Shown: piece by piece, positions 4,455-37,265 of the stretch
How positions within the stretch are numbered: the first letter of the stretch is position 1
Layout: each line of letters begins with the position of its first letter
DNA from: Candidatus Yanofskyibacteriota bacterium
GTDB lineage: Bacteria; Patescibacteriota; Minisyncoccia; 2-02-FULL-40-12; IGHO2-12-FULL-4
Direction of reading: 5' to 3'
DNA: 45,734 bases
Assembly (NCBI GenBank): GCA_016185525.1
Contig: JACPNK010000001.1
Coordinates: 1 to 45,734, forward strand
Made by a program: the position numbers and the translations under genes
The notes under the pieces: model-generated
What the model was told of the DNA's origin: nothing
The model's input: the letters and a program-made list of their open reading frames with translations, nothing else
The model's database searches: none

Positions 4455-5168
4455 TTATCGCGTGGTGGTATTTACGGCAATTGTTAACTCCCCTTTTGAC
4501 AATTCTTCTCCGGCTTTTGACAAAATCTCCGAAGCTGTACCGCGGTAAATTGTCTCAAATTTTTTGGTTAATTCTCTGGCAACAACCAACTGTCGATTCT
4601 TCAATTCTTCATGCTCGGACATTTCTTTGAGAGTCTTGATAATTCTGTGGGGCGATTCGTAAAAAACGACGGTATGTTCGGAATCGGCAATTTTTTGAAA
4701 AAAAGTTTTTCTGCCTTTTTTGTGAGGAGAGAATCCTAAAAACAAAAACCTATCAGTCGGAAATCCGGAAATGCTTAAAGCGGCAACAGCCGCGTTGGGC
4801 CCAGGAATCGGAACGATCTCCACTTCCAGTTCCGGAGTTTTTAGCACTTCCTCAAGCAACTTGCCGCCCGGATCGGAAATGCCGGGTGTTCCGGCATCTG
4901 TTACCAAGGCAATGTCTTTACCTTCTTTCAGTAAATTCAAAACTTTCTCAACTTCTTTTTGAGAACTATGGTGATGGTAAGAAATGAGAGGCTTTTCTAT
5001 CTGAAAATGAAAAAGGATTTTTTTTGTAACTCTGGTATCTTCGGCAACAATCAAGTCAACTTCCCGCAAAATTCTTAAAGCCCGTTGAGAAATATCCTCA
5101 AGATTGCCGATTGGGGTAGCGACTACAAATAATTTAGACATAAAAAAAGAAAAAAGCTTCGCGGACAC
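4455..5168 (-). CDS. rsmI: 16S rRNA (cytidine(1402)-2'-O)-methyltransferase (likely start MSKLFVVATPIGNLED, ~5141)
   Basis: LFVVATPIGNLEDISQRAL, VAEDTRVT, TDAGTPGISDPG, IPGPNAAVAALSISG. Confidence 0.95.
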   Translation of the reverse strand: MSAKLFSFFMSKLFVVATPIGNLEDISQRALRILREVDLIVAEDTRVTKKILFHFQIEKPLISYHHHSSQKEVEKVLNLLKEGKDIALVTDAGTPGISDPGGKLLEEVLKTPELEVEIVPIPGPNAAVAALSISGFPTDRFLFLGFSPHKKGRKTFFQKIADSEHTVVFYESPHRIIKTLKEMSEHEELKNRQLVVARELTKKFETIYRGTASEILSKAGEELSKGELTIAVNTTTR

Positions 5169-5313
5169 AGCTCTTTCAGTACGTTCGTCTGCTCCTGCGA
5201 CAGACTCACTCGCGCTGAAGTTGGGGTTTGCTCGCAGTTACAGAATAATTATACTGCTCGCAACCAAGCAACCCTCAACTTCAGAGCGACTTCAAGAGCT
5301 GTGTCCGCTGTGC
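5158..5313. repeat. nested-palindrome intergenic element 1
   Basis: Outer arms GCGGACACAGCTCTT (5161-5175) / AAGAGCTGTGTCCGC (5294-5308); inner arms CGCTGAAGTTG (5213-5223) / CAACTTCAGAGCG (5276-5288); apex contains AATTATACTGC. Confidence 0.75.
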
Positions 5314-5329
5314 TTTATCAATTCTCAAC

Positions 5330-6463
5330 TTATAGACTTTGCTCTGCCCCTTCTTCTATATGAATGTGATTCCTGTTTTTACTGAACTCATCCAGAATCT
5401 CCACAATAATCGCCGCCAGAGGCACGGACAAAATCATGCCCAAAATTCCGGCAAGTTTAAAACCTATAAGCAAAGCCAAGATAACTACGACCGGATTTAG
5501 TCCGACCGTTCTGCCCAGAACAATCGGCACCAATACGTGGTTCTCCAGCTGTTGAATTATCAGGTAAGCCAATATTACCCAAAGCCCCAAAGTTGTTGAC
5601 TGGGCAAAGGCCAAAATAACCGCCGGCACAGCCGCCAAAACCGGACCGACGTTAGGCACAAGTTCCAAAATCATGGCCAAAATTCCCAAAAGCAAAGCAA
5701 ATTTTATTCCCAGAAGAGAGAGGGTGATATAAACGGCCAGTCCGACGACCAGAGCAAGAAGCAATTGGCCTTGAATCCAACGCCCCACTTTTATTTCTGA
5801 TCTTTTCCAAACGCTCAAAATAGACGCCTCATATTCTTTCGGCACGACAGAACGGATGAAATTTTCTATCCCGCCCCGCATCACCGACAAATAGAAAGAA
5901 ATAACCACAACCGCCAAGAAAGAAAATATTCCGCCGAAAACGCTGACCACAAAACCAAAAGCTGAACTGGATGACGCCTGCAAGTAGCTGGAAAAAGTAT
6001 CCAGCAAGTTGAGCATTTCATTGAAAAAATCAACATAGCGGGACGAGCTTTCCTGCTGTGCTTTCTCCAGAGATACGGAAACCTTGTCTAAAAAAGTCGG
6101 CAAATCTTTAATCAGTTGATTTATTTCCCCGCTTACAAATGGCACCACCAAAGATAAAAGAAACAACGCTAAAACAAAAAGAGAGAGATACAGGAGCAAA
6201 ACACCGAGCAGCCTGGGAAACTTCTTCTGGTCCAGCCAGTTGGCAAAAGGCGTTACACCCGAAGCGATAATGATAGCAAAGAGCAGAATGATGATAATGT
6301 CCTTCAAAAGATACAGAAAAACAAAAAATAGCAAAATCAAAACAACCTTAAAAATGGCAAAGGTCTCGATATCGTGAAAAACTGTTTTTGGTCTTTCGTT
6401 ATTAGTCATCGTTAAAACGTAGCCAATGTTGCTTTTGTAGACGCTGTGGGCTGTGGATTGCAT
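5330..6463 (-). CDS. AI-2E family transporter/permease (likely start MTNNERPKTVF, ~6409)
   Basis: Multi-TM with LVPNVGPVLAAVPAVILAF and GRTVGLNPVVVILALLIGFKLAGILGMILSVPLAAI. Confidence 0.85.
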   Translation of the reverse strand: MQSTAHSVYKSNIGYVLTMTNNERPKTVFHDIETFAIFKVVLILLFFVFLYLLKDIIIILLFAIIIASGVTPFANWLDQKKFPRLLGVLLLYLSLFVLALFLLSLVVPFVSGEINQLIKDLPTFLDKVSVSLEKAQQESSSRYVDFFNEMLNLLDTFSSYLQASSSSAFGFVVSVFGGIFSFLAVVVISFYLSVMRGGIENFIRSVVPKEYEASILSVWKRSEIKVGRWIQGQLLLALVVGLAVYITLSLLGIKFALLLGILAMILELVPNVGPVLAAVPAVILAFAQSTTLGLWVILAYLIIQQLENHVLVPIVLGRTVGLNPVVVILALLIGFKLAGILGMILSVPLAAIIVEILDEFSKNRNHIHIEEGAEQSL

Positions 6464-29468: not shown

Positions 29469-29813
29469 ATGCCGCGAGTCAAAAGAGGAACAACCGCAAA
29501 CAAAAGAAGAAAAAATCTGCTGAAACACGCAAAGGGTTTTATGTGGACCAGAAGCACCAAGTATCGCCAAGCCAAAGAAGCTTTGCTTCACGCTTGGTCG
29601 TTTCAGTTTGCCGACCGCAGGAAAAAGAAAAGCAATTTCCGCAGACTCTGGCAAATTAAAATAAACGCCGGAGCCAAAGAAAACGGCATATCATACAGCC
29701 AATTCATAAACCGCCTCACAAAATCCAAAATAGAACTAGACCGCAAAATCCTCGCTGACCTCGCCCAACACGAACCGGAAGTCTTCAAAAAAATAGTCGA
29801 GACCGCAAAATAA
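29469..29813 (+). CDS. rplT: ribosomal protein bL20
   Basis: MPRVKRGTTANKRRKNLLKHAKGFMWTRSTKYRQAKEALLHA. Confidence 0.96.
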   Translation: MPRVKRGTTANKRRKNLLKHAKGFMWTRSTKYRQAKEALLHAWSFQFADRRKKKSNFRRLWQIKINAGAKENGISYSQFINRLTKSKIELDRKILADLAQHEPEVFKKIVETAK

Positions 29814-29840: not shown

Positions 29841-29883
29841 AGCAGTGCGAATCATGAACACCGCCCGCCTATTGGTCAAAATC

Positions 29884-30264
29884 CTATTGAGACTTCTTTA
29901 GTAAACCGCGAATCTTTTTAATTTCTCGAGCCATATCGTTGCGAAGCTGAACACGAGCTGGATCAACAGGTTCCTTTTCAATATTATCAGCGTCTTGTAT
30001 AAGCCAATCCAGGACATCTCCGAGATAATTAGGGTCATTAAAACCGGCATCAACATAGAGCTTGGTTTTTTCAAAATTAACTCTTTCGTCATCAGAATCT
30101 TCTTGATCCTGCCACTTATAAAACAAGTTGTTTGCTTCAACAACCTCGGGATCATTCAAGTCTAAATCGTCGGGACTGGTAATCCCTCTTTCTACAAACT
30201 TTTTATAGGCATCTAAAACCTGGGCCTTAGATACTCTTTCAAGTGAGGAAATCAATTCTTTCAT
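29884..30264 (-). CDS. hypothetical acidic protein
   Basis: ORF MKELISSLERVSKAQVLDAYKKFVERG...; start of accessory island. Confidence 0.55.
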   Translation of the reverse strand: MKELISSLERVSKAQVLDAYKKFVERGITSPDDLDLNDPEVVEANNLFYKWQDQEDSDDERVNFEKTKLYVDAGFNDPNYLGDVLDWLIQDADNIEKEPVDPARVQLRNDMAREIKKIRGLLKKSQ

Positions 30265-30313
30265 AATTAAAGATTATATAACCACTTATTATAAAACTTT
30301 CCCATTTGCAGGG

Positions 30314-30344
30314 CGAATCCTCTTTCGCTTCGAAGGAGGATTCG
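30314..30344. repeat. 31-bp near-perfect palindrome
   Basis: CGAATCCTCTTTCG-CTT-CGAAGGAGGATTCG (single T/G position). Confidence 0.75.
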
Positions 30345-30356
30345 GACGGACACAGT

Positions 30357-30444
30357 AGAGAACATTGCAGTGCACTCCATAGCTTTACGCGAAGGAGGGG
30401 AAAACTTTATTAGGTAGAATCTATGGGTATTTTATACAAAATCC
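30357..30444 (+). repeat. D-motif copy 1 (interrupted)
   Basis: AGAGAACATTG [about 31-nt insertion] GGGGAAAACTTTATTAGGTAGAATCTATGGGTATTTTATACAAAATCC. Confidence 0.5.
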
Positions 30445-30485
30445 TACCTTAATACTAGATTTTAACGATATTTATTAAAACAAAA

Positions 30486-30511: not shown

Positions 30512-31171
30512 TCAAACAATTCGACCAGTAAGGTACCCCTCCCTGTTTTCGTCCCAGAAAATCTTCCGTGGTGTAGTCTTGGTAACACCAGCTTGTGTCA
30601 CCACACTGTCAAGTCGCCCGTTGAAAAAAATCGGGACTCCTTCTCGCAAAGCAGAAGCGCTCACAGTGTCATTCGCTCTAACTCCATTTAGAAGTTGGCT
30701 GATGCCACGATTCACAAGATGGATTCCACCTTTTGCTACATACGCACCACCATAATTATCATGAACTAGATCTGGCTCAAGTACAGACTCGGGCATTAAA
30801 TTCCCTCCAGTTATTATGAGGAAATCAGCATCTCTCGGTTGAATTTCTTCCTGATAAACGCCTGTGACCATAGGTCCAAATAGGAAATACTTTCTTCGTG
30901 AATAAGGAATATCCTTAGGATGACGAACTGCGGATCCGAATGCGATAACCGCAACAATGTCACCAAGCGGAACTAGAGTATGGTTGACCCTCCACCCCGT
31001 TACGAGCTTGTATAGATCGTCGAGACGAATGAAAAATGGGTCATTCTGACTGAGTTCGTAGTGTGTATAGCATCTCCCATTCGGAAAATAAAGTCTCCCA
31101 AGACGCTTTGTTTCAAAGTATTTCGTGAAATCATCCATGTGCAAAACGGTCTCAACTGCTGTGCTTTTCAT
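30512..31171 (-). CDS. hypothetical protein, possible nucleotidyltransferase-like fold
   Basis: ATG at 31171 preceded by GGGAGAAAG; AFGSAVRHP...RDADFLIITGG resembles GS-x-DxD NTase motif; TTGACA-N17-TAAGTT upstream. The ORF-track start at 31291 runs through repeat A. Confidence 0.45.
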   Translation of the reverse strand: MKSTAVETVLHMDDFTKYFETKRLGRLYFPNGRCYTHYELSQNDPFFIRLDDLYKLVTGWRVNHTLVPLGDIVAVIAFGSAVRHPKDIPYSRRKYFLFGPMVTGVYQEEIQPRDADFLIITGGNLMPESVLEPDLVHDNYGGAYVAKGGIHLVNRGISQLLNGVRANDTVSASALREGVPIFFNGRLDSVVTQAGVTKTTPRKIFWDENREGYLTGRIV

Positions 31172-31257
31172 CGACTTTCTCCCTTTGTAAAGTACAGTAA
31201 ATAACGTTAGTAACTTATCATTAATAGTAATCTGTGTCAAGGGCAACAAAAACATCA

Positions 31258-31469
31258 GCATTTCTGCTGTTTTTTGATCAAAGTTTTCCATTCTCTTTGG
31301 GGGTCAAGGAATGCTGATTTCAGGAAAACATAAATAATTCAAATTCTAAGACAATCACTCATTTACTTGGCTCGCTTTTTATACTCGGCAGAGCGCATTG
31401 GACGACATTAGAACCCATTTAATACAATTAACTGGGTATTCTCCGTTCACCATAGTTAGGAGTTGGTAA
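31258..31469 (-). repeat. 212-bp shared 3' element, copy A (core hairpin 31389-31469)
   Basis: Direct copy of 32778-32989; same length, 9 mismatches counted by eye; starts 6 nt after stop of CYTH gene. Confidence 0.93.
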
Positions 31470-31475
31470 TTATTT

Positions 31476-32075: not shown

Positions 32076-32169
32076 AGTTTAATTTAATTATCCAAAGAGT
32101 TCTAACGTCTCTTTAACATCACTTCAAAAAGTAGCATAAACATTGGCTTACTAAAAATGCAGGGACAAT

Positions 32170-32225
32170 AGAGAACATTGGGAAACTTTGTTCAATGAAA
32201 TCTATGATTATTTTATTAGAAATCC
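32170..32225 (+). repeat. D-motif copy 2
   Basis: AGAGAACATTGGGAAACTTTGTTCAATGAAATCTATGATTATTTTATTAGAAATCC. Confidence 0.55.
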
Positions 32226-32370
32226 AGTAATTATGCCGATTTTTGAATATCAGCTATAAAATGATGGTAATACTGGCATGTTGGCAAATTTAATTTAACA
32301 TGGTTTTTGCCAATTAAAAAGCGGATTTGATATAATCGCACCGCCACAGAACTTAGTTCTCCTCACAACA

Positions 32371-32658
32371 TCAAGGAACATGAATCGTTGGGTCACCCCA
32401 TAAACTGATACACACCGAGACAGTTTCTGCTTGTTCTATTCCTCTGTGTTTTGCATTAAATGTCAGTTGTGCGTACTCAGGGAAACTACAATCGGTCCTA
32501 AACTGTGCCGCAAACCTCACACGATCAACAACGGTAATTTGTTCATAACCTCGAAGTTGTAATTCTTGTATGGCAGTCAGCTTTTCTACCTGACCCTGAA
32601 GAATAAAACTAAAAATTGCAAAAATACCCACAACCAAGAGAAAACTCGAGAATTTCAT
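32371..32658 (-). CDS. small putative secreted/membrane-anchored protein
   Basis: Likely start MKFSSFLLVVGIFAIFSFILQGQVEKL; the ORF-track start at 32811 lies within repeat B. Confidence 0.5.
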   Translation of the reverse strand: MKFSSFLLVVGIFAIFSFILQGQVEKLTAIQELQLRGYEQITVVDRVRFAAQFRTDCSFPEYAQLTFNAKHRGIEQAETVSVCISLWGDPTIHVP

Positions 32659-32777
32659 TGTGTCTCCTTTGCTATTTTTAGGCATTGAGCCAGTGGCATA
32701 GCTGCCATTTTGGTTGTTTACGAACGTGCTTATATTATATCGTATCTTAAGGTAATAGCAAGCCCAACAAAAAACCG

Positions 32778-32989
32778 GCATTTCTGCTGTTTTTTGATCA
32801 AAGTTTTCCATTCTCTTTGGGGGTCAAGGAATGCTGATTTCAGGAAAACATAAATAATTCAAATTCTAAGACAATCACTCATCTACTTGGCTTGCTTTTT
32901 ATACTCGGCAGGGCGCATTGGACGACATTAGAACCCATTTAATGCAGTTAAATGGGTATTCTCCGTTCGCCGTTGTTAGGAGTTGGTAA
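32778..32989 (-). repeat. 212-bp shared 3' element, copy B (core hairpin 32909-32989)
   Basis: Begins 5 nt after RT stop codon; ACCCATTTAA-CTGCA-TTAAATGGGT stem perfect in this copy; ends in terminator-like hairpin CAAAAAACAGCAGAAATGCCGGTTTTTTG. Confidence 0.93.
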
Positions 32990-32994
32990 ATCTA

Positions 32995-33747
32995 CTACTC
33001 ACTATTTCCATAAACCAACTCCCCTATTTTCCACTCTAATCCCTTCGCATTGCCGTGGCTTAATAACCCGAGATATGACTGAATGCTCTCATCCTTCTTT
33101 CTGTTTCTTTGAACACCACGGAGCATCCTCTTTTTTGTTGTTGTCCGCACAGACCTGTAGTCTGGGAAGTGCACCCAACCGAGAAAATCAACGCCCGAGG
33201 CTAAGGTTTTAATTGATACCTTGTCTGCGTGCAGTTTAAGGCCGAGTTTGCTCTGTAAAAACTCACTGATTTTTGGAAGTATCTTCTCAAGCCATTTTTT
33301 ATCTTCAAACAATATCACAAAGTCATCAGCGTAACGAATATAGTACTTCGTTTTTATTTTATGCTTAACAAACTGGTCAAACTCATTCATATAGATATTA
33401 ACTAGCAGCTGGGAGGTAAGATTGCCAAGCGGCAAACCGATGCCAAGCCGATTTGAACTAAAACTATCGATAACCCCATCAAGCAGCCATAGAATATCCT
33501 GGTTTTTAATGTATCGGCCTAAAATTGCTAAAAGTATCTCGTGATCGATATTATCAAAAAACTTTCTAATGTCGCATTTTAGTATCCAAGCTGTTTGGGT
33601 GTGGTTTTTAGAAACCTTATAGGCAAAACTCTGAAACCTATTTATGGATTTATGCGTTCCCTTGTTTAGCCTGCAAGAGTAGGAGTCGAATATAAAAGTT
33701 CTATCAAAAAATGGATATAGATTTCTATAAATGGCGTGGTGGAGCAA
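32995..33747 (-). CDS. reverse transcriptase, apparently N-terminally short (non-ATG start)
   Basis: IGLPLGNLTSQLLVNIYMNEFDQF, YYIRYADDFVILF catalytic motif, LHADKVSIKTLASGVDFLGWV; first in-frame codon TTG, preceded by in-frame TGA at 33772-33774. Confidence 0.9.
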   Translation of the reverse strand: MLHHAIYRNLYPFFDRTFIFDSYSCRLNKGTHKSINRFQSFAYKVSKNHTQTAWILKCDIRKFFDNIDHEILLAILGRYIKNQDILWLLDGVIDSFSSNRLGIGLPLGNLTSQLLVNIYMNEFDQFVKHKIKTKYYIRYADDFVILFEDKKWLEKILPKISEFLQSKLGLKLHADKVSIKTLASGVDFLGWVHFPDYRSVRTTTKKRMLRGVQRNRKKDESIQSYLGLLSHGNAKGLEWKIGELVYGNSE

Positions 33748-33837
33748 CCTGTCCCTTAAAACTCCGAGAATTCAGGGTCTTATAGCTATGGCTGGATTCG
33801 CAAGTAATGCTATTAAGGTGCTATATCTTATACTTTA

Positions 33838-33866
33838 ATTATACTCTTTTTATATAGATTTGTCAA
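33838..33866 (-). promoter_or_regulatory. consensus sigma70-type promoter driving RT leader
   Basis: Minus strand TTGACA (33866-33861), 17-nt spacer, TATAAT (33843-33838). Confidence 0.75.
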
Positions 33867-33872
33867 ATATCC

Positions 33873-33954
33873 GCAGGGTGCATTGGACGACGTTAGAACC
33901 CATTTAATGAGCTTAACTGGGTATTCTCCGTTCGCCATAGTTAGGAATTGGTAA
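33873..33954 (-). repeat. shared 3' element, copy C (core hairpin only)
   Basis: TTACCAATTCCTAACTATGGCGAACGGAGAATACCCAGTTAAGCTCATTAAATGGGTTCTAACGTCGTCCAATGCACCCTGC; begins about 12 nt after stop of upstream kinase-like gene. Confidence 0.9.
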
Positions 33955-33966
33955 AGTGGAATATAA

Positions 33967-34542
33967 CTACAACAAGATATTACTAACAATATCATCTGCC
34001 AACTCTGTCCAATTCATTACTGTTGTATCAACCACTACGGTCTTTAATTTTGATTCCCGAGAGAGTTCAAGTAAATATCTTTGTTGGTTTGTATAGTACT
34101 CTATCTTTTCTTCTAGAGTTCCAGATTTTCCTTTAACCCACTGTTCTCCCCTAAGAATCCTAGCATGTTCTATCCTTTCTTGTATTTTACTCTCGTCCAT
34201 TTTTAATAAAATGATAAAGGGTTGGTAGTGTTCTAGTAAATAACCTTCTATGCTTTTAAAATCATTAACAGAACTTTTTGTCCTAAAAGCGTGGGTGAAA
34301 TGAAATCTGTCAATGATTACTACTGATGTTTTAATCTTTTTAACTCTTGAGTCAAGAAATTCTTTCAGAAACTTTAGAGCGGTTTTTTTTGAGATGTTAT
34401 CTACCAATGGCATCAGAGTTTCACCCTCACCAATTATTTCAACAGAAGAATTCTCTTTGAGTTTATTCGTCAGCTCTTTTACGATAGTTGTTTTCCCAGA
34501 AGAAGCTATACCTTCAAATATTAATAACTTAGATTTATTCAT
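33967..34542 (-). CDS. P-loop kinase, thymidylate kinase-like
   Basis: LLIFEGIASSGKTTIVKELTNKL Walker A; VVIIDRFHFTHAFRTK; RIEHARILRGEQW. Confidence 0.7.
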   Translation of the reverse strand: MNKSKLLIFEGIASSGKTTIVKELTNKLKENSSVEIIGEGETLMPLVDNISKKTALKFLKEFLDSRVKKIKTSVVIIDRFHFTHAFRTKSSVNDFKSIEGYLLEHYQPFIILLKMDESKIQERIEHARILRGEQWVKGKSGTLEEKIEYYTNQQRYLLELSRESKLKTVVVDTTVMNWTELADDIVSNILL

Positions 34543-34625
34543 TTAACTAATCTATATTCTAATACCCAAGACCCTGCTTAAAAAAGTGATTGTAAAATAT
34601 GGTGAACTTCGTTGGCGGGGCCAAT

Positions 34626-34681
34626 CGAGAACACTGGAAAACTTTGATGACCAGTATTTACGATTATTTTACACAAAATCC
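34626..34681 (+). repeat. D-motif copy 3
   Basis: CGAGAACACTGGAAAACTTTGATGACCAGTATTTACGATTATTTTACACAAAATCC. Confidence 0.55.
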
Positions 34682-34709
34682 GTTATTAATACTGGATCTG
34701 GATACATCA

Positions 34710-35327
34710 TTAACCTATTTTTCTAGCTAAAAGCTTAAACATTAAATTATGCAAGACCTCACCTTTGTCGCCACGAATTAAAAGTTTTGTATTTTTCTTA
34801 CTAAATTTTACGATTTTCCAATCCGAATATAGCTCCTTTAATGTTTTCTCCGAGGGAAAATAAAATCTATGTTTTGCTAGTTTATAAAAATCTCCTTTGT
34901 TGCCAAAAATATAAAAAGAATTGATGCCTCCTGGTAAAGTTTTATTTTTAAGATCATCAATAAATTCTAAAAAATTACTGCCTAAAAACTGAAAAACGCC
35001 ATAACTAACTATTATGTTATATTTACCTCCGATTTTAGATTTTGTTATATCCTTCGCTAGTCCTTTTAGCTTCAAACTATATTTTCCCGCTCGATCCAAC
35101 ATCTTTTTAATTACTGTTTTTGAAATATCTATACCCAGTGCATCATATCCTTTTTGAGCAAAGTAAAAGCAGTCATATCCTTCCCCCGAACCGATATCCA
35201 AAACTTTGCCATTTTTTACATATCCAGTAGCAAGTCGTGAATAAGTGTGGGCTTTTTGTTCCCAAAGTTTTCCCTCTGCTATTTTGTATTCTTTTTCCCA
35301 ATCTACATCTTCTTTTCTAGTTTTCAT
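34710..35327 (-). CDS. SAM-dependent methyltransferase
   Basis: GKVLDIGSGEGYDCFYFAQKGYDALGIDIS. Confidence 0.8.
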   Translation of the reverse strand: MKTRKEDVDWEKEYKIAEGKLWEQKAHTYSRLATGYVKNGKVLDIGSGEGYDCFYFAQKGYDALGIDISKTVIKKMLDRAGKYSLKLKGLAKDITKSKIGGKYNIIVSYGVFQFLGSNFLEFIDDLKNKTLPGGINSFYIFGNKGDFYKLAKHRFYFPSEKTLKELYSDWKIVKFSKKNTKLLIRGDKGEVLHNLMFKLLARKIG

Positions 35328-35641
35328 AATTCTTTACTATGTCTATCAATAATCTTCTCTTTTGTCTTTTCTATAGCCGAACTTAGATCGACATTATAGT
35401 GATTTGCTATTGTGGTTATGGCAATCAAAACATCGCCAATTTCTCCTTCCAAATCCGCCTCCATTTCTTTTCTTTCTTTGTTGCCACTCAATTTTCTTAT
35501 TGATTCTGCCACTTCTCCCAACTCTTCAAACAAATATATCAGCTGAAGATGAGGGTCTGGTTTTTCCTTAGAAAATTTGTCCCAGTCTTCTTTAACCCAT
35601 TTTTGTAATTCTTTTAAATCCATATTTAAATATTTAATCAC
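35324..35641 (-). CDS. MazG-like nucleotide pyrophosphohydrolase
   Basis: LIYLFEELGEVAESIRKL...EMEADLEGEIGDVLIAITTIANHYNVDL (EExxE...ExxD). Confidence 0.85.
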   Translation of the reverse strand: MIKYLNMDLKELQKWVKEDWDKFSKEKPDPHLQLIYLFEELGEVAESIRKLSGNKERKEMEADLEGEIGDVLIAITTIANHYNVDLSSAIEKTKEKIIDRHSKEL

Positions 35642-35676
35642 TGAAAAGTTATAGTGTCCACTATCTAACAGGCTTG

Positions 35677-35748
35677 CAGCGCCAAGGGGAGTCGAACCCC
35701 TCTTCTGTGATTGAAAATCACATGTCCTAACCGATAGACGATGGCGCC
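35677..35748 (-). tRNA. tRNA-Glu (anticodon UUC)
   Basis: GGCGCCATCGTCTATCGGTTAGGACATGTGATTTTCAATCACAGAAGAGGGGTTCGACTCCCCTTGGCGCTG folds as cloverleaf; loop TTTTCAA. Confidence 0.92.
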
Positions 35749-36149: not shown

Positions 36150-37265
36150 ATGCTTATTCTTGGTATTGAGACATCTTGCGATGACACCGCGGTAGCGGTT
36201 TTAGAAGTTCACCCTGTCAAATCCCCCGATGGGGGAACCACAAAGTGGTTATTTGACAGGGTAAAAGTTAAAAGTAATGTTGTTTCCTCTCAAGTTAAAC
36301 TCCATGCAAAATATGGGGGTGTTTTTCCGTCTTTGGCGGCGCGGGAACATGAAAAAAATTTACCCAAAGTTTTAAAGCTGGCGCTTAAAGAAGCCAAAAT
36401 AAAAATTGAGGATATTGACTTAATTGCCGTTACCAAAGGACCGGGACTAGCGCCTTCTTTGTGGCGTGGAGTAAACTTTGCCAATGAGTTGGCAAAAAGA
36501 TTTAAAAAACCAATTACTGGAGTAAACCATTTAGAGGGCCACATCTACTCCAACTGGTTGAGACCAACTGGAGAAAAATCCAAAACCCAAATGACAAATG
36601 ACAAAATTTTTCCGGCATTAAACTTAATTGTTTCCGGAGGACACACGGAACTTGTTTTAATGAAGGGTCATGGGAGGTATAAAATAATTGGTGAAACTTT
36701 GGATGACGCTGTGGGCGAAGCCTTTGACAAAGTTGCCCGCATGTTAGGCCTGGGCTATCCTGGCGGACCGGCTGTTGCGCTACGCGCAACAAAGTTTAAA
36801 GTTGAAAGTTCGTCAAGTTATAAAATTAAATTTCCCAGACCAATGATAAACTCAAAAGACTTTAACTTTAGTTTTTCGGGTTTGAAGACCGCTGTTTTGT
36901 ACAAGACGAGAGAGTTTACCCGCCTGCCGGACGGGCAGGAAAAACTAAGCCCGAAAATCGTAAACCAAATTTGTTATGAGTTTCAGGAAGCGGCAATAGA
37001 TGTTTTAATTTCAAAAACGATTAAGGCTGGGGAAAAATACAAAGTAAAATCGGTAATGCTTTCCGGCGGAGTTTCGGCAAATAAGTCACTAAGAGAAAAA
37101 CTTGAGAAAAAAATAAGCGCAGAACTCAACAATGTTAAATTTTTCAAACCAGACATGACTTATACTTCCGACAATGCTGCTATGATTGCTTTAGCAGGTT
37201 ATATGAAAAAGAAAAACGCAAAACAGGGGTCGGTTAAAGTGGATGCTAACCTAAATTTGGGTTAA
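36150..37265 (+). CDS. tsaD: tRNA N6-adenosine threonylcarbamoyltransferase
   Basis: MLILGIETSCDDTAVAVLE, SNVVSSQVKLHAKYGGVFPSLAAREH, GVNHLEGH, VSGGHTELVLM. Confidence 0.95.
   Translation: MLILGIETSCDDTAVAVLEVHPVKSPDGGTTKWLFDRVKVKSNVVSSQVKLHAKYGGVFPSLAAREHEKNLPKVLKLALKEAKIKIEDIDLIAVTKGPGLAPSLWRGVNFANELAKRFKKPITGVNHLEGHIYSNWLRPTGEKSKTQMTNDKIFPALNLIVSGGHTELVLMKGHGRYKIIGETLDDAVGEAFDKVARMLGLGYPGGPAVALRATKFKVESSSSYKIKFPRPMINSKDFNFSFSGLKTAVLYKTREFTRLPDGQEKLSPKIVNQICYEFQEAAIDVLISKTIKAGEKYKVKSVMLSGGVSANKSLREKLEKKISAELNNVKFFKPDMTYTSDNAAMIALAGYMKKKNAKQGSVKVDANLNLG
36212..36261. repeat. perfect three-way-junction palindrome inside tsaD
   Basis: CCCTGTCAAAT / CCCCC-GAT-GGGGG / AACCAC-AAA-GTGGTT / ATTTGACAGGG, no unpaired bases between stems. 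Confidence 0.95.

Follow-up and report, generated by a model that had tools for sequence, protein, structure and literature searches.

A coding repeat in a Patescibacteria genome as the probable half-site of large serine recombinases that target tRNA genes

Main finding

The repeat of about 82–86 bp that occurs three times in the window (the whole 45,734-bp stretch of DNA analyzed here) is very probably the right half (P-right) of the attachment (att) site of large serine recombinases (LSRs), and the array that carries it was very probably built by tandem accretion, at a tRNA-Glu gene, of LSR-mobilized cassettes that mostly lack an LSR. The P-right half-site would overlap the LSR gene's own final 24 codons, so that in an autonomous circular form the gene would extend across the core at which crossover occurs (GCAG here) and end in this tail. 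Repeated integrations at a single tRNA-Glu 3′ end would have produced the tandem array, the integrated units being mostly small cassettes made up of a tail, one or more genes and a left half-site, with no LSR. By sequence comparison we document below the LSR identity, the junctions and their shared core, the empty and occupied sites, a 5-bp shift between half-sites and the in-frame restoration of an LSR gene. From these arrangements we infer catalysis by LSRs, the order in which the units inserted and mobilization in trans of the cassettes that lack an LSR.

The array between rplT and tRNA-Glu

The array occupies 5,862 bp between rplT and tRNA-Glu and comprises about seven cassettes of one or two genes. 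Its junction cores lie at 29842, 30308, 31388, 32159, 32908, 33873, 34615 (degenerate, GCGG) and 35676, with one or two convergent genes behind each. The features are as follows.

29469–29813 (+), rplT (L20), which borders the insertion site on the left
29842–29845 (+), GCAG core of the leftmost junction, immediately behind the rplT terminator; corresponds to the empty attB position in relatives
29884–30264 (−), cassette 1 cargo, 126-aa ORF, no family
30308–30460 (+), copy 1 of the second tail family (REHW type), which contains a palindromic insertion; GCAG core at 30308–30311
30512–31291 (−), cassette 2 cargo, 259-aa ORF, no family; true start probably near 31172
31249–31391 (+), proposed P-left half and promoter of cassette 2, 95% identical to 32769–32911
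31388–31469 (+), copy A, core GCAG and LSR tail; codons 31395–31466, stop TAA
31476–32075 (−), cassette 3 cargo, CYTH/CyaB-like protein; follows copy A
32159–32241 (+), second tail family copy 2; core GCAG at 32159–32162
32371–32811 (−), cassette 4 cargo, 146-aa ORF, no family
32769–32911 (+), proposed P-left half and promoter of cassette 4, 95% identical to 31249–31391
32908–32989 (+), copy B, core GCAG and LSR tail; codons 32915–32986, stop TAA
32995–33747 (−), cassette 5 cargo, reverse transcriptase (RT) of the diversity-generating retroelement (DGR) type, without its N terminus; follows copy B
33873–33954 (+), copy C, core GCAG at 33873–33876 and LSR tail (predicted P-right half-site); 24 codons at 33880–33951, stop at 33952–33954
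33967–34542 (−), cassette 6 cargo, P-loop kinase; follows copy C
34615–34697 (+), second tail family copy 3; degenerate core GCGG at 34615–34618
34710–35641 (−), cassette 7 cargo, TehB-like methyltransferase and MazG protein; adjoins tRNA-Glu
35676–35679 (+), GCAG core of the rightmost junction, at the 3′ end of tRNA-Glu
35676–35748 (−), tRNA-Glu (TTC), chromosomal target and predicted attB right half (ARAGORN, Rfam)
36150–37265 (+), tsaD homologue, right border; named from its N-terminal motif

The leftmost junction (29842–29845) has no clear tail. No cassette of the window contains a recombinase gene, and the genome's two LSRs have cores other than that of the window.

Several comparisons fit the horizontal movement of tail-plus-gene units. 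The CYTH cassette shares conserved left-half blocks (GTTCTAACGTC...GCTTnCTAAAAnTGCAG) with a cassette in another genome (G021), and 842 bp of the RT cassette match a cassette in a different family at 85% identity (rplT, 78%), the match ending near the core. The 226 bp upstream of ORF259 and of ORF146, up to the core, are 95% identical (31249–31469 and 32769–32989) and the gene bodies are unrelated, as would result from a swap of cargo behind a shared left half.

The second tail family (+ strand, NREHWxTLxxxIYDYFxxNP), which is not in the LSR frame, also marks junctions, and the palindromic insertion in its first copy (30308–30460) is common to G021 (L183). A promoter-like stretch, TTGACA-N17-TATAAT (33830–33866), precedes the RT cassette; a 37-bp match to it, 92% identical, lies elsewhere in the genome (contig C1, 84370–84406; L093).

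The repeat as the C-terminal tail of a recombinase gene

As the original prediction had it, the three copies are real: they align without gaps in one orientation (A, 31385–31470; B, 32905–32990; C, 33870–33955) with 88–91% mutual identity, and the roughly 82-bp intervals first proposed span the GCAG core through the stop codon exactly. They are the only strong full-length matches in the 812-kb genome, where a fourth copy, on contig C7 near 108248–108365, has a palindromic insert that splits it. The repeat recurs at 73–92% identity in further genera of the order, certainly above chance, and an exact pattern scan of viral contigs for the tail gave zero matches. At the inspected loci it lies near the stop codon of a gene converging on its + strand frame, usually within about 15 bp, L006 being the main exception.

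Each copy is, by sequence comparison, the last 24 codons plus stop of an LSR gene, read on the + strand. Its tail peptide there is [AG]LDDVRTHLMQLTGYSPFAIVRSW followed by a stop, and the copy adjoins the 3′ end of the convergent gene; the well-preserved copies have an open frame of 24 codons, [AG]LD[DE]VRT[HA]LMQ[LI]TGYSPFAIVRSW, and a stop. Degraded tails also occur, without a stop (L007, L013) or with an internal one (L029). In the + strand frame the minimum numbers of substitutions at codon positions 1, 2 and 3 are 21, 19 and 36 (permutation P = 0.0015); third positions thus vary most, which is the pattern of coding sequence. When 387 genomes of the class were searched with a profile of the tail peptide, one tail was found to end an intact 519-aa protein (G205) with Resolvase, Recombinase and Zn_ribbon_recom domains, a set that identifies it as an LSR. 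Pfam finds Resolvase, Recombinase and zinc-ribbon domains in the LSRs of L042, L185 (G015; gene at 4692–6329, minus strand) and L164 (G021), the zinc-ribbon match of L164 falling just below the cut-off.

Two other readings of the tail were discarded. The minus-strand frame (MANGEYPVNCIKWVL...) is open in some copies, has a stop in another and finds no protein support, and a degenerate tRNA-Asn, suggested by some likeness of motifs (GAACC, TTAA), lacks acceptor pairing.

The hairpin and the comparison with attC sites

The original prediction described the repeat as a hairpin element with invariant arms and a hypervariable loop, under selection on structure and resembling attC. Its description of the individual copies is accurate, in that the stem of copy B is a perfect 10 bp and the loops differ among copies. 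Selection on structure was not confirmed. RNAalifold on 13 copies gives zero pairs; folding z-scores range from −1.9 to −3.1 for minus-strand DNA and from 0.0 to −1.9 for RNA, so the hairpin is not convincingly above chance; and in the proposed 13-bp stem 78% of cells are paired and 3 pairs have changed on both sides, compared with 1–3 in slid controls. Some measures (cells paired, covariation score) exceed those of shuffled alignments, as related sequences can do without any structure. The palindrome ACCCATTTAAT..ATTAACTGGGT starts about 22 bp from the core, so the hairpin lies mostly outside the predicted half-site, and it is best explained as incidental to the coding tail. A hairpin or RNA element as such was likewise set aside, given the weak folding and covariation and the absence of any Rfam family at the repeat.

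The proposal of a recombination site behind cassette genes stands in its general part: nearly every copy directly follows a gene stop, and the copies mark the junctions of inserted genes. Its attC specifics do not. An integron-like site, recognized by a tyrosine recombinase through the structure of a single-strand hairpin, would account for the gene-plus-site layout, for the CCTAAC motif beside gene stops and for some hairpin potential in the DNA. However, of the attC boxes R′′ and R′ (RYYYAAC/GTTRRRY) the repeat has CCTAAC at its 5′ end and no complementary GTTRRRY at its 3′ end, and the conserved single-strand hairpin with extrahelical bases is not seen in the copies. No gene of the genome reaches the cut-off for an IntI integrase, its two tyrosine recombinases being Xer-like, and no attI was found; moreover, the array ends at a tRNA gene and the repeat sequence is that of an LSR C terminus. 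The missing R′/R′′ pairing and the tie to an LSR together refute the attC reading, to which we give practically no chance.

Copies B and C flank a DGR-type RT, and every variable column among A, B and C includes an A, as might be expected if the copies were template and variable repeats (TR and VR) of that enzyme. No single copy, however, has A at all variable positions, and the adenine-specific differences from one template copy that mark a TR/VR pair are not found; besides, the RT is absent beside most copies elsewhere, and these lie at tRNA junctions and behind unrelated genes. The probability of this origin is therefore close to nil. Mobilization by an RT through a 3′ tail, as in LINE/SINE elements, was also rejected: most copies have no RT nearby and sit at tRNA-type junctions or convergent gene ends.

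LSR genes that run into tRNA genes

The LSR relatives in named Patescibacteria MAGs can be aligned up to about residue 494 and diverge beyond it, the point of divergence being the start of an antisense tRNA 3′ end. One, for example, reads ...TIWLR and then G, a stop and DSNLQP at TGGCTCCG, which is complementary to the 3′ end of a tRNA-Asn. Of the 20 LSR loci that rank best in the order of the window genome, 14 abut or overlap a tRNA gene, for Gln, Ser, Ile, Leu, Arg, Glu, Ala or Gly. Thus, the 3′ end of an LSR gene appears to be one att half and the tail the other.

The element in G015 (12,436 bp) has a window-type tail at its left junction, after TTTGGCAG, and at its right end an LSR reading ...NPLMQ that is fused to tRNA-Glu(ctc) at GCAG. 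When the ends are joined the reading frame is restored, as ...NPLMQ continuing into GAMDDVRTALMQITGYSPFAIVRSW and a stop. Domain matches identify the LSR and, as cargo, a type III restriction-modification pair; the element also has a PF00589 gene. At a site of the same type in G021, a tRNA-Glu(ctc) beside a MurF-like gene, there is a 0.83-kb cassette with the same tail and one methyltransferase-like gene.

At 14 of the 20 LSR loci of the order an inverted copy (28–141 bp) of the LSR 3′ end lies just upstream of the LSR gene (L154–L169, L063–L070, L089, L090:640–1000). Where readable, it usually has an intact core and a different tail, which suggests that a full attP, inverted, stays with the LSR after integration; inversion of the LSR at such loci is possible. 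Contig C5 of the window's genome starts inside an inverted repeat of this LSR 3′-end type.

Empty and occupied insertion sites

The neighborhood rplT–tRNA-Glu(TTC)–tsaD is recurrent in the order. In four relatives the site is empty, with 33–60 bp from rplT to the tRNA (that of G033 reads ...TTTTTAGCAGCGCC). A single cassette is present in G001, a member of the window's own genus, in G037 and in G028; its tail is of the second family in the first two and of the family of copies A–C in G028, and the G001 cargo includes a HicA toxin. In G021 the occupant is a 4.6-kb element whose LSR sits on the tRNA side. Such use of a tRNA 3′ end, filled in some genomes and empty in others, is the arrangement of a tRNA-gene genomic island. 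The same layout is found at tRNA-Gln in G025, tRNA-Gly in G273 (two tails in tandem) and G175, and tRNA-Trp in G078. These sources are MAG and genome assemblies, in which contig breaks at inverted repeats blur some element ends.

Such an island could be of the ordinary kind, made by tyrosine recombinases, with the tails as displaced att fragments. tRNA 3′ ends are classic targets of tyrosine integrases (PMC4383910), the G015 element has its PF00589 gene, and a cassette at tRNA-Gln in G025 is flanked by a 26-bp direct repeat (L111:5079 and 6253), longer than LSR chemistry needs; that repeat may reflect a tail adapted to its tRNA. A joined-flank query for the empty site of G025 gave congener matches that span the tRNA side only. 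Against this origin, the gene fused to the junction is repeatedly an LSR and the tail is in frame with LSRs; the window array carries no tyrosine integrase, related junctions have an LSR (G015 having a tyrosine integrase in addition), and the two tyrosine recombinases of the window's genome are, as noted, Xer-like. Together with the half-site spacing described next, which is an LSR feature, this makes a tyrosine-recombinase island very improbable.

Architecture of the attachment sites

As in LSR att sites, tail and tRNA junctions share a short core (GCAG, GTGC or GCTG) between different flanks. For 21 of 23 junction pairs, many of whose cores were set by eye from the shared tetranucleotide, the tail has a GAAC-like motif at 19 bp from the core and the tRNA has it at 14 bp; nearly all LSR loci with a boundary fixed by an exact inverted repeat likewise show a 5-bp difference, L163 being the outlier. 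Rutherford et al. (PMC3783163) found that in attB the zinc-domain motif is closer to the crossover, by 5 bp, than it is in attP, and by that rule the 14- and 19-bp spacings correspond to the attB and attP half-sites of an LSR. A third tail family (ILEIVRTHFAA..GG) was seen in L017 to the left of the tail (reverse strand) and in the upstream tails of L164 and L161; several tail types therefore share the 19-bp spacing.

The 24-codon fragments might instead be decayed LSR genes with no role as sites, as the lack of an intact LSR in the window and the mutated tails of L013 and L029 would allow. Yet it is the core-to-stop part alone that is kept in every copy, with its boundary at the core; cargo begins immediately after the tail; and the same core recurs at the tRNA. 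Simple decay is thus very improbable indeed, and an LSR half-site remains the preferred reading.

Relation to known systems

The proposed recombinases share the Resolvase, Recombinase and Zn-ribbon domains of phage-type large serine integrases (A118/LI, phiC31, Bxb1, SPbeta SprA) and the same 5-bp shift of the zinc-domain motif between attP and attB half-sites (PMC3783163). They differ in that tRNA 3′ ends are targeted and small recombinase-less cassettes accumulate; and since the LSR gene's own 3′ end is one att half, its C terminus would change on integration, unlike that of phage-type integrases.

In staphylococci, Ccr recombinases target rlmH, and the SCC elements that they move are large and encode the recombinase. 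The present system would resemble them in forming composite arrays, with LSRs inserting one element after another at the 3′ end of a conserved gene, and NCBIfam reports similarity to SCC Ccr recombinases; here, however, the targets are tRNA genes and the cassettes have one or two genes.

Integrase-less elements (CIMEs, among ICEs and IMEs) retain their two att ends and accumulate in tandem at a single site (PMC5704250), with a tyrosine recombinase as the rule, whereas here the enzyme would be an LSR, the units are far smaller and the att halves are conserved. Serine-recombinase insertion at tRNA genes is known for phiRSM1 (at a tRNA-Ser 3′ end) and mycobacterial AICEs and has been called rare (PMC3218068). 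Those are isolated cases; here many tRNA types are used across one order and the recombinase reads into the tRNA. What is new is therefore confined to a combination: LSR sites located at tRNA genes and formed in one half by the 3′ end of the recombinase gene itself, together with arrays of very small passive cassettes. In the open-access literature (subscription papers lay outside the search) no paper joins "large serine recombinase" with "Patescibacteria", and the name of the radiation occurs with serine recombinase only in another context.

Integron gene cassettes (IntI/attC) are likewise single genes, each with one recombination site, in arrays; they differ in using a tyrosine recombinase, attC folding and an attI platform, in place of the serine recombinase and tRNA anchor found here. 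We suggest tentatively, and with slightly more doubt than conviction, that the system is a serine-recombinase counterpart of integrons, in which tRNA-targeting LSRs move and stack one-gene cassettes in trans and exchange their own C terminus at each integration. Each one-gene cassette would then have a conserved left half and a tail, and the LSR would end in the 24-aa tail in the circle and in an antisense-tRNA peptide in the chromosome, which could be a built-in direction switch.

Integration at tRNA genes is usually ascribed to tyrosine integrases, and here LSRs are found at many tRNA types throughout an order of reduced-genome Patescibacteria. Stacking of LSR-less cassettes at tRNA genes would be a concrete route of gene gain for tiny genomes, and the many natural attP/attB pairs with predicted targets should be useful for LSR tools and for tests of LSR C-terminus function.

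Cargo

Across the elements the cargo includes HicA-type toxin-antitoxin, type III restriction-modification and DGR reverse transcriptase genes. With diversity-generating retroelements the system shares only this RT among its cassette genes, the repeat being neither TR nor VR. The RT of the window (32995–33747) is without about 85 N-terminal residues; in G022 (L020:1–1760) the same tail is accompanied by a complete DGR-type RT of 338 aa, an apparent Avd gene and a template-like sequence. The cargo at the fourth copy of the repeat in the genome (L094, about 5150–5500; G000:C7:108248–108365) resembles that behind the copy in G023 (L010).
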